Shown in pieces: positions 1,374 to 64,000 of a DNA stretch of 64,000 nucleotides; the stretch's first letter is position 1, and every line of letters begins with the position of its first letter. Below the pieces are notes generated by a model. It saw only the letters and a list, made by a program, of their open reading frames with translations, was not told the origin of the DNA and ran no database searches. The position numbers and the translations under genes are program-made. Source of the stretch: Salvelinus alpinus (lineage: Eukaryota > Chordata > Actinopteri > Salmoniformes > Salmonidae); the NCBI RefSeq assembly GCF_045679555.1, contig NC_092091.1, positions 93,381,327 to 93,445,326 of the forward strand, in the 5' to 3' direction.

Positions 1374-1504
1374 CACAGTTGTTTAGGGTGAAGAGTGGGT
1401 GGCTGGTGGGCAGGGGTTCAGGGACGGTGACGTCTAGTCCGGCTCCAGCTATCTGACCGCTGGACAGGGCTTCATACAGATCCTCCTGGTGTACCACCCC
1501 TCCC
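1374..1504 (-). CDS. grhpr: grhpr exon 8
   Basis: 131 nt, encoding [18 protein letters not shown] and [17 protein letters not shown], including the catalytic Glu of PEPLP. The acceptor is GTTAG and the donor is TGTG/GTGAGT at 1373. The upstream intron edge is a minisatellite that includes this acceptor. Confidence 0.94.
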
Positions 1505-4500
1505 CTAACACACACAGCCATCATCATGTTACTGTCTACCACACACAGCCATCATCATGTAATACTGTCTACCACCCCTCCTCTAACACACACAGCCATC
1601 ATCATGTAACTGTCTACCACACACAGCCATCATCATGTAACTGTCTACCACACACAGCCACCATCATGTTACTGTCTACCTCACACAGCCATCATCATGT
1701 TACTGTCTACCACACACAGCCACCATCATGTTACTGTCTACCACCCCTCCTCTACCACACACAGCCATCATCATGTTACTGTCTACCACCCCTCCTCTAC
1801 CACACACAGCCATCATCATGTTACTGTCTACCACACACAGCCACCATCATGTTACTGTCTACCACACACAGCCATCATCATGTAATACTGTCTACCACCC
1901 CTCCTCTACCACACACAGCCATCATCATGTTACTGTCTACCACACACAGCCATCATCATGTTACTGTCTACCACCCTCCTCTACCACACACAGCCATCAT
2001 CATGTAATACTGTCTACCACCCTCCTCTACCACACACAGCCATCATCATGTTACTGTCTACCACCCCTCCTCTACCACACACAGCCATCATCATGTAACT
2101 GTCTACCACCCCTCATCTACCACACACAGCCATCATCATGTAACTGTCCACCACCCCTCCTCTACCACACACAGCCATCATCATGTAACTGTCTACCACC
2201 CCTCCTCTACCACACACAGCCATCATCCTGTAATACTGTCTACCACCCCTCCTCTACCACACACAGCCATCATCATGTTACTGTCTACCACCCCTCCTCT
2301 ACCACACACAGCCATCATCATGTATTACTGTCTACCACCCTCCTCTACCACACACACAGCCATCATTATGTAATACTGTCTACCACCCCTACTCTACCAC
2401 ACACAGCCATCATCATGTAACTGTCTACCACCCCTTCCCTACCACACACAGCCATCATCATGTAACTGTCTACCACCCCTACTCTACCACACACAGCCAT
2501 CATCATGTAATACTGTCTACCACCCCTCCTCTACCACACACAGCCATCATCATGTAACTGTCTACCACCCCTCCTCTACCACACACACAGCCACCATCAT
2601 GTTACTGTCTACCACACACAGCCATCATCATGTAACTGTCTACCACCCCTCCTCTACCACACACAGCCACCATCATGTAACACCGTGTGTTACCGTGTGT
2701 TACCGTGTGTTACCGTGTGTTACCGTTACCGTGTATTACCCTGTATTACCGTTTGTTACCATGTGTTACCGTGTGTTACCGTGTATTATCGTGTATTACT
2801 GTGTGTTACCATGTGTTACCGTGTATTACCGTGTATTACCGTGTATTACCGTGTGTTACCGTGTATTACTGTGTGTTACCGTGTATTACCATGTGTTACC
2901 GTGTGTTACCGTGTATTACCGTGTGTTACCGTGTATTACCATTGGTTACCAAGTGTTACTGTGTGTTACCGTGTGTGTGTGTGTGTGTGTGTGTGAGCTT
3001 GGTCACCTGCTTGTGTTGATGAAGATGGAGGTATTCTTCATCTTAGAGAACAGGTCCTTGTTACAGATGTCTTTAGTCTCTGGTGTCAGAGCACAACACA
3101 CTGTCAGGAAGTCAGACTGACTGGCCAACTCTTCCATAGAGACTGGAGGGAGAGAGGACAACATACTGTCAGGAAGTCAGACTGGCTGGCCAACTCATCC
3201 ATAGAGACTGGAGGGAGAGAGGGAGAGAGGACAACACACTGTCAGGAAGTCAGACTGACTGGCTAACTCATCCATAGAGACTGGAGGGAGAGAGGACAAC
3301 ATACTGTCAGGAAGTCAGACTGACTGGCCAACTCATCCATAGAGACTGGAGGGAGAGAGGGAGAGAGGACAACACACTGTCAGGAAGTCAGACTGACTGG
3401 CCAACTCATCCATAGAGACTGGAGGGAGAGAGGACAACATACTGTCAGGAAGTCAGACTGACTGGCCAACTCATCCATAGAGACTGGAGGGAGAGAGGGA
3501 GAGAGGACAACATACTGTCAGGAAGTCAGACAGACTGGACAACTCATCCATAGAGACTGGAGGGACAGAGGACAACATACTGTCAGGAAGTCAGACTGGC
3601 TGGCCAACTCATCCATAGAGACTGGAGGGAGAGAGGACAACATACTGTCAGGAAGTCAGACTGACTGGTCAACTCATCCATAGAGACTGGAGGGAGAGAG
3701 GACAACACACTGTCAGGAAGTCAGACTGACTGGCCAACTCTTCCATAGAGACTGGAGGGAGAGAGGACAACATACTGTCAGGAAGTCAGACTGGCTGGCC
3801 AACTCATCCATAGAGACTGGAGGGAGAGAGGGAGAGAGGACAACACACTGTCAGGAAGTCAGACTGACTGGCCAACTCATCCATAGAGACTGGAGGGAGA
3901 GAGGACAACATACTGTCAGGAAGTCAGACTGACTGGCCAACTCATCCATAGAGACTGGAGGGAGAGAGGGAGAGAGGACAACATACTGTCAGGAAGTCAG
4001 ACAGACTGGACAACTCATCCATAGAGACTGGAGGGACAGAGGACAACATACTGTCAGGAAGTCAGACTGGCTGGCCAACTCATCCATAGAGACTGGAGGG
4101 AGAGAGGACAACATACTGTCAGGAAGTCAGACTGACTGGCCAACTCATCCATAGAGACTGGAGGGAGAGAGGGAGAGAGGACAACATACTGTCAGGAAGT
4201 CAGACAGACTGGACAACTCATCCATAGAGACTGGAGGGACAGAGGACAACATACTGTCAGGAAGTCAGACTGGCTGGCCAACTCATCCATAGAGACTGGA
4301 GGGAGAGAGGGAGAGAGGGCAACATACTGTCAGGAAGTCAGACTGGCTGGTCAACTCATCCATAGAGACTGGAGGGAGAGAGGACAACATACTGTCAGGA
4401 AGTCAGACTGACTGGTCAACTCATCCATAGAGACTGGAGGGAGAGAGGACAACATACTGTCAGGAAGTCAGACTGACTGGTCAACTCATCCATAGAGACT

Positions 4501-62388: not shown

Positions 62389-64000
62389 GTAAGGATACCA
62401 CTGTTACTATGGACTACACTGGGTTATGGGATGGAGATTACCGTCCCAGAGTACAGGCCAGCAGAGAAGGTAAGGATACCACTGTTACTATGGACTACAC
62501 TGGGTTATGGGATGGAGATCACCGTCCCAGAGTACAGGCCAGCAGAGAAGGTAAGGATACCACTGTTACTATGGACTACACTGGGTTATGGGATGGAGAT
62601 TACCGTCCCAGAGTACAGGCCAGCAGAGAAGGTAAGGATACCACTGTTACTATGGACTACACTGGGTTATGGGATGGAGATTACCGTCCCAGAGTACAGG
62701 CCAGCAGAGAAGGTAAGGATACCACTGTTACTATGGACTACACTGGGTTATGGGATGGAGATTACCGTCCCAGAGTACAGGCCAGCAGAGAAGGTAAGGA
62801 TACCACTGTTACTATGGACTACACTGGGTTATGGGATGGAGATTACCGTCCCAGAGTACAGGCCAGCAGAGAAGGTAAGGATACCACTGTTACTATGGAC
62901 TACACTGGGTTATGGGATGGAGATTACCGTCCCAGAGTACAGGCCAGCAGAGAAGGTAAGGATACCACTGTTACTATGGACTACACTGGGTTATGGGATG
63001 GAGATTACCGTCCCAGAGTACAGGCCAGCAGAGAAGGTAAGGATACCACTGTTACTATGGACTACACTGGGTTATGGGATGGAGATTACCGTCCCAGAGT
63101 ACAGGCCAGCCGAGAAGGTAAGGATACCACTGTTACTATGGACTACACTGGGTTATGGGATGGAGATTACCGTCCCAGAGTACAGGCCAGCAGAGAAGGT
63201 AAGGATACCACTGTTCCTATGGACTACACTGGGTTATGGGATGGAGATTACCGTCCCAGAGTACAGGCCAGCCGAGAAGGTAAGGATACCACTGTTACTA
63301 TGGACTACACTGGGTTATGGGATGGAGATTACCGTCCCAGAGTACAGGCCAGCAGAGAAGGTAAGAATACCACTGTTACTATGGACTACACTGGGTTATG
63401 GGATGGAGATTACCGTCCCAGAGTACAGGCCAGCAGAGAAGGTAAGGATACCACTGTTACTATGGACTACACTGGGTTATGGGATGGAGATTACCGTCCC
63501 AGAGTACAGGCCAGCAGAGAAGGTAAGGATACCACTGTTACTATGGACTACACTGGGTTATGGGATGGAGATTACCGTCCCAGAGTACAGGCCAGCAGAG
63601 AAGGTAAGGATACCACTGTTACTATGGACTACACTGGGTTATGGGATGGAGATTACCGTCCCAGAGTACAGGCCAGCCGAGAAGGTAAGGATACCACTGT
63701 TACTATGGACTACACTGGGTTATGGGATGGAGATTACCGTCCCAGAGTACAGGCCAGCAGAGAAGGTAAGGATACCACTGTTACTATGGACTACACTGGG
63801 TTATGGGATGGAGATTACCGTCCCAGAGTACAGGCCAGCAGAGAAGGTAAGGATACCACTGTTACTATGGACTACACTGGGTTATGGGATGGAGATTGCC
63901 GTCCCAGAGTACAGGCCAGCAGAGAAGGTAAGGATACCACTGTTACTATGGACTACACTGGGTTATGGGATGGAGATTACCGTCCCAGAGTACAAGCCAG
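62353..64000. repeat. 81-bp array of uba6 exon S 3' end plus donor
   Basis: Twenty full units of exactly 81 bp and a partial one at the window edge. Each has GAGATTACCGTCCCAGAGTA, GCAGAGAAG/GTAAGGATAC and ACACTGGGTTATGGGATG. No indels; a few substitutions. Confidence 0.97.

Follow-up and report, generated by a model that had tools for sequence, protein, structure and literature searches.

Minisatellites that carry splice signals in their repeat units have been described before. The minisatellite of the interferon-induced gene 6-16, a single human gene studied by Turri and colleagues in 1995, is said to contain many splice donor sites in its units, and Zhuo and colleagues reportedly described in 2007 how introns arise from tandem arrays of direct repeats, through a tandem duplication including splice signals, in work that concerns new introns. 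Here, we examine a stretch of 64,000 nucleotides (nt) of the Salvelinus alpinus genome (C6:93381327-93445326 in an assembly of 2.37 Gb; hereafter the window), in which ten minisatellites lie at exon-intron junctions of two neighboring genes, GRHPR and UBA6. In human genes in segmental duplications, minisatellites of about 30 bp on average lie at exon-intron boundaries, as detected with Tandem Repeats Finder (TRF), and 27 intron modifications are reported (PMC2812944, Genome Biology 2009). In rainbow trout irak3, repeats of an exon start precede that exon (PMC6763605); there are four copies, they appear as a remark in an immunology paper, and the passages at hand contain no test of generality. 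Minisatellites are also named in the introns of seabream growth hormone (PMC3045353). The parts seen of this last paper and of those on cod (PMC5241972), earthworm (PMC12783039), and Nothobranchius (PMC2688266), together with an intron review (PMC3488318), held nothing useful on mechanism. A search of the open-license literature turned up no survey of junction repeats in fish, just the trout irak3 paper and the human study.

Junction copies in the window were sought with a 16-mer (8 + 8 nt) centered on each of 52 junctions, within 1.5 kb and with up to 3 mismatches. An array was present at each of the ten junctions named in a first-pass annotation, which had claimed that every unit carries the exon edge and the splice site. 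This held for nine of the ten, where the exon edge and the splice dinucleotide are repeated together in the unit, as in an exon-intron-boundary tandem repeat, with 3 to 46 extra copies of the junction 16-mer. The nine junctions are the donors of GRHPR exons 4 and 6 (D4 and D6), the acceptors of GRHPR exons 7 and 8 (A7 and A8), the donors of UBA6 exons 2, 6, and 8 (D2, D6, and D8, arrays B, F, and H), the acceptor of UBA6 exon 17 (A17, array Q), and a later UBA6 donor (DY, array S). The exception was the UBA6 exon 13 donor array (D13, array M; 43173..43665, plus strand; exon 13 end at 43175), which has no extra 16-mer copy within 1.5 kb; its 61-bp units repeat GTAGGT with just 3 nt of exon, the TGG, and its 7 decoy donors (repeat copies of the splice site) were found with a shifted core. 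Two further candidates, UBA6 D7 (6 copies) and D17 (2 copies), were discounted, as the exon end there resembles the adjoining AC microsatellite.

All ten arrays consist of head-to-tail units within the 10- to 100-bp range of minisatellites, with units of about 25 to 81 bp and copy numbers that run from about 4 to over 300 according to TRF. On the minus strand, the GRHPR exon 8 acceptor array (TRF, 1492..2678; exon 8 start at 1504) is made mostly of units of about 45 bp with 19 decoy acceptors; the junction 16-mer occurs there in 19 copies, and the real site outscores 18 of the 19 decoys. The GRHPR exon 7 acceptor array (3088..5496; exon 7 start at 3142) has 65/73-bp units, 34 decoy acceptors, and about 55 nt of exon, and the exon 6 donor array (5669..7570; exon 6 end at 7564) has mostly 25/33/34-bp units, 60 decoy copies, and 7 nt of exon. 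Units of about 70 bp with a GT microsatellite form the GRHPR exon 4 donor array (8021..8400, the limit at 8400 being set by eye; exon 4 end at 8359), which holds 4 decoy donors. On the plus strand, the UBA6 exon 2 donor array (15803..16020; exon 2 end at 15825) has units of about 53 bp, 3 decoys, and 23 nt of exon. The largest array, at the UBA6 exon 6 donor (25687..36206; exon 6 end at 25698), comprises 29/35-bp units with 322 decoy copies and 12 nt of exon; its TRF start is 25709, and the initial unit, which carries the exon end, was placed by eye. The UBA6 exon 8 donor array (37706..38215; exon 8 end at 37717) follows with 33-bp units, 14 decoys (11 with GT), and 12 nt of exon, and the exon 17 acceptor array (45959..46792; exon 17 start at 46784) with a 44/46-bp spacing, 17 decoy acceptors, and 9 nt of exon. 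Lastly, the later UBA6 donor array (62353..64000) reaches the window edge with 81-bp units at 99% matches, 19 decoys in the window, and 36 nt of its exon (62317-62388); directly right of the window, the assembly continues with 7,500 N. The reading frame of this array is continuous with that of its exon across the window part (62317-64000), and use of its decoy donors would add 27-residue repeats.

In the arrays read, whether in the window, its flanks, or other loci, the copy adjoining the exon body continues the conserved reading frame, which shows that the exon-side copy is the real splice site. As in the human study, these are boundary minisatellites, and there a change in the repeat alters intron structure (PMC2812944). 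The human repeats differ in having about four units and 160 bp on average, with some forming novel introns, whereas here the GRHPR introns lie at old positions and one array holds 322 decoys over 10 kb. In two paralogs, on C4 and C7, the GRHPR introns occupy roughly matching positions, and exon-sized matches occur one by one with introns between, so that GRHPR shows no new intron made by tandem duplication. In this they are unlike the new introns attributed to tandem duplication by Zhuo and colleagues. The kind of repeat is thus already known from the human boundary repeats and trout irak3; we did not find described its recurrence over genes of one genome or the size of such decoy ladders.

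The pattern extends beyond the window. The flanks add three acceptor arrays in the same two genes: one at GRHPR exon 9 (L017, exon 7399-7520) and two in UBA6, at CCCCCAG|GTGTCG (L019, about 4886-5507; 8 extra copies) and at TTACAG|GTGCAT (L019 about 9815 to L020 about 144; 5 extra copies). Window and flanks together, array M included, thus count 13 arrays at 60 junctions, seven at donors and six at acceptors; in the window, 7 of 27 donors and 3 of 25 acceptors gave no sign of a donor bias (Fisher P = 0.30). A two-copy duplication over a UBA6 donor, read by eye at L019 about 9690-9810, is possibly the founder stage of a junction array. Further loci were located by a whole-genome search for PF02826 exons, and six were fetched as 10-kb stretches (L029 to L034). 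Three of the six hold a junction-spanning array, namely a ctbp donor array with 13 junction copies (L030), a ctbp acceptor array with 11 (L033), and a donor array in another PF02826 gene with 35 copies at up to 2 mismatches, 11 exact and 23 with GTTAG (L032). The pattern reported in the first-pass annotation is real and recurs in other genes. No junction array was found in the 10-kb loci L029, L031, and L034, in the GRHPR paralog stretches L012 and L013, or in eight 3-kb pieces around PF02826 matches (L001 to L008), where repeated 16-mers made up at most 5%, and at most 2% inside the matches. L029 to L031 were picked partly for their wide exon-hit spacing, and some repeats in L008 prompted the choice of L033; a junction array was in no case the reason. 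Alignments were read by eye to set exon borders in L012, L013, and L029 to L034 and, for the six added arrays, their edges and overlaps with exons. Tandem repeat load ranged from 0.7% to 64% over eight 10-kb stretches at round coordinates and from 49 to 71% in three flank stretches, and it looks strongly regional in this genome.

The ten window arrays hold 499 decoy copies, and GT or AG is intact in 488 of them, a count obtained by likeness to a 16-base core containing the splice site, which favors intact dinucleotides and misses badly decayed copies. Selection could have kept the arrays if decoys regulated or diversified splicing, be it by poison extensions or by repeats read in frame, of which the open 81-bp UBA6 array would be a case; we consider this quite unlikely. 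It would fit with the 164 of 499 decoys whose score equals or exceeds that of the real site under a matrix built from the window's own sites, and with the open frame over the window part of the 81-bp array. Boundary repeats of human paralogs yield alternative transcripts (PMC2812944), and trout irak3, with its exon-start repeats, has many transcript variants, which the passages at hand do not tie to the repeats (PMC6763605). However, in ungapped alignments of seven arrays the exon-derived or splice columns did not consistently exceed the remaining unit in conservation, being higher in some and lower in others, so no selection on the decoys is seen, as for neutral copies. Moreover, the GRHPR paralogs on C4 and C7 are without arrays, with a protein match to the window exons of just 41 to 83%, and querying proteins with the open UBA6 repeat returned nothing at an E value of 0.001 among 7,995 candidates scored.

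The UBA6 exon 6 array, in intron 6, contains an exact self-repeat of 3,936 bp at a shift of 3,958 bp (26997-34890), which is either a recent block duplication or an assembly artifact, and the intron 3 array contains an exact internal repeat of 1,405 bp. If the assembly is correct, these exact repeats indicate recent exchange, and array growth seems to proceed through the swapping of large blocks. That mis-assembly inflated or even invented the arrays is, in our judgment, highly unlikely. The region is certainly a hard one, given the 3,936-bp self-repeat, a 100-N gap, about 240 missing UBA6 residues, and the 7,500 N right of the window, and array copy numbers may be wrong. Nevertheless, units in most arrays vary by substitutions and in length, coding frames are intact on both sides, and like arrays stand free of internal gaps in L030, L032, and L033 and have been reported for trout irak3 (PMC6763605).

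These arrays are probably minisatellites of the ordinary sort, in which the first unit to be duplicated chanced to span an exon-intron junction in a compact-intron gene. Local tandem duplications of 30 to 80 bp would arise in genes with introns of about 100 nt, so that the duplicated piece would often hold a splice site. Unlike a duplication within an exon, one over a junction would be tolerated, since the exon-body copy would keep the true frame and the others would become intron. That copy would pair with the splice site at the other end of the exon, and under exon definition the exon-proximal copy would win. Unequal exchange and slippage would then extend the array away from the exon, with tens to hundreds of decoy sites as the outcome. 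We infer the founding duplication, its tolerance through exon definition, and growth by exchange; the expected win of the exon-proximal copy comes from what is generally known of splicing.

Tandem repeats cover 74% of the window (TRF), and for 89% of intronic 16-mers three or more near copies already lie within 1.5 kb; raw shuffling is therefore an unfair null, and junction hits are expected in number. In the placement null, each array was collapsed to a single unit and placed randomly, but never entirely inside an exon, and junction crossing was scored. Introns collapsed to one unit per array have a median of 120 nt (n = 24), in which a 30- to 80-bp unit hardly avoids a junction. The excess in the window is weak. 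There, 10 of 20 arrays were junctional against 5.8 expected with placement by gene region (P = 0.03). Placement conditional on the intron gave 9/19 against 6.8 (P = 0.17), counting per junction gave 9/48 against 5.2 (P = 0.07), and restoring two simple-repeat arrays gave 8/21 against 5.6 (P = 0.14). With the flanks, the figures were 12/26 against 8.3 (P = 0.07), or 11/23 against 7.9 (P = 0.10) for complete introns alone, one intron whose left end is not defined being dropped.

These tests exclude arrays of fewer than three copies as well as the two-copy UBA6 duplication, arrays at 46990-57523 where exons are missing, and, as simple repeats, pyrimidine-rich and microsatellite arrays. Array 4-1321 was left out of three window tests and included in the flank, register, and all-loci tests. 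The 81-bp UBA6 array, whose intron ends in the N gap, was excluded from the intron-conditional, restored-array, lengthened-intron, flank, register, and all-loci tests. For the added loci, arrays outside mapped exons were set aside (L032 7614, 8972, and 9778; L033 1877, 2258, and 9934), and the intronic L029 array at 4357-4407 was counted in the all-loci test and not in the register test, with P hardly altered. The eight 3-kb pieces (L001 to L008) took no part in the placement tests.

The lengths assumed for introns holding the four GRHPR arrays are supported by the paralogs. Introns 4 to 7, collapsed, measure 111/100/270/73 nt in the window, which agrees in sum with about 182/162/120/113 nt on C4 (L013) and 223/146/120/118 nt on C7 (L012), where exon ends are approximate. 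Several results nevertheless weigh against chance straddling as the whole explanation. Pooled over the window, its flanks, and eight further loci, 15 of 37 arrays were junctional against 9.5 expected (1.6-fold; P = 0.0175, uncorrected), and when at least 7 exon bases were required, 14 of 37 against 7.8 (P = 0.007, uncorrected); the eight loci beyond the GRHPR-UBA6 pair gave 3/11 against 1.2 (P = 0.09). The outcome depends on ancestral intron length: introns 1.5-fold longer than when collapsed would bring P for the window by itself to 0.02. The null also treats all junction-spanning duplications as fully tolerated, and the excess would be larger if some were harmful. Furthermore, long introns occur elsewhere in the GRHPR paralogs (3,434 and 1,004 nt on C7; 1,075 nt on C4), and the length support is confined to GRHPR. 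Much of the pattern thus follows from compact introns, and the residual excess, up to about twofold, is graded as no more than suggestive, since the P values carry no correction and the pattern itself prompted the choice of the window. The claim that this many junction hits is unexpected keeps weak support from the all-loci excess (1.6- to 1.8-fold) and loses ground to the short introns, which make such hits common; seeding of arrays at splice sites is not established.

Splice-site regions might instead be hot spots for founding duplications, either through R-loops or breaks from transcription and the spliceosome or through slipping of AC, GT, or pyrimidine tracts, which we regard as a rather unlikely origin. 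The all-loci excess speaks for it, with P values that are uncorrected and dependent on the assumed intron length, and so do the junction arrays in longer-intron genes (the ctbp donor in L030 and the ctbp acceptor in L033). A microsatellite or pyrimidine tract also lies beside the splice site in several units (GRHPR D4, A7, and the exon 9 acceptor; ctbp L030), although the UBA6 exon 6 and exon 8 units are without a microsatellite. Nor does the geometry point to the splice site itself. The junction fell at no constant position within the unit across 16 arrays, the exon share ranging from 0.05 to 0.85 (Kolmogorov-Smirnov test against uniform, P = 0.12); the exon-side edge of the array lies 3 to 55 nt into the exon, and repeat coverage in the window has no peak at junctions, just an increase from exon to intron. 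These observations speak against a start directed by the splice site. Mean GC skew was +0.07 at the 10 array junctions and -0.08 at the 42 others, a G-rich lean whose direction fits the suggested R-loop-linked origin; as it is not significant (P = 0.14), GC skew was discounted as a sign of R-loops. Another mechanism put forward in the first-pass annotation, reuse of spliced RNA, by which spliced or partly spliced transcripts would be copied back into DNA, is hardly credible. Exon pieces do occur in the units, yet every unit read is a contiguous piece of exon and its own intron, and exon-exon 20-mers sought over the window on both strands with up to 3 mismatches gave no match for 24 exon pairs. 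Taken together, these findings lend no support to breakage at the splice site itself or to RNA reuse. The data are compatible with a modestly raised propensity of splice-site regions, of about 1.5- to 2-fold, and do not require it.

The two genes were as the first-pass annotation had named them, with phmmer matches in PDB at 6e-118 for GRHPR and 1e-220 for UBA6. GRHPR runs on the minus strand with coding exons 1 to 8 (overall 1374..10699), at 10623-10699, 9655-9788, 9236-9308, 8359-8475, 7891-7979, 7564-7668, 3007-3142, and 1374-1504, respectively. UBA6 runs on the plus strand with coding exons 1 to 17 (15284..46861; first 15284-15324, last 46784-46861) and two later coding exons (57524..62388), at 57524-57593 and 62317-62388. 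The 27 coding exons in the window have AG/GT borders, and the joined frame is open for UBA6 and, with the exon 8 border shifted by one base, for GRHPR. Human UBA6 residues 519-759 (about 240) are unmatched at 46862-57523, though the exons on either side match; this stretch has a 100-N gap (53901-54000) and degenerate GTAGGTAGG-like repeats, and several UBA6 exons are thus lost or misassembled there. A telomere-like degenerate CCCTAA array lies within UBA6 intron 7 (37046-37204). Viral contigs, scanned once with the UBA6 exon 8 junction sequence, gave no match.

If such arrays are as common in this genome as the small sample of the UBA6-GRHPR pair and three of six further loci suggests, they would provide a natural test of splice-site choice, with one donor standing before 322 near-identical decoys and an acceptor behind dozens. 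Consistent use of the exon-proximal copy, or its absence, would be a direct test of exon definition. In such fish, junction arrays as a class could also have consequences for how genes are annotated, for allele-specific splicing, and for assembly. We entertain, tentatively and as an unlikely case, that splice junctions in this genome are hot spots for minisatellite birth, with short-intron transcription or splicing provoking junction duplication and many genes bearing self-renewing decoy ladders with a selection-anchored copy. Should the excess be true genome-wide, it would suggest splicing or transcription as a source of tandem duplication.

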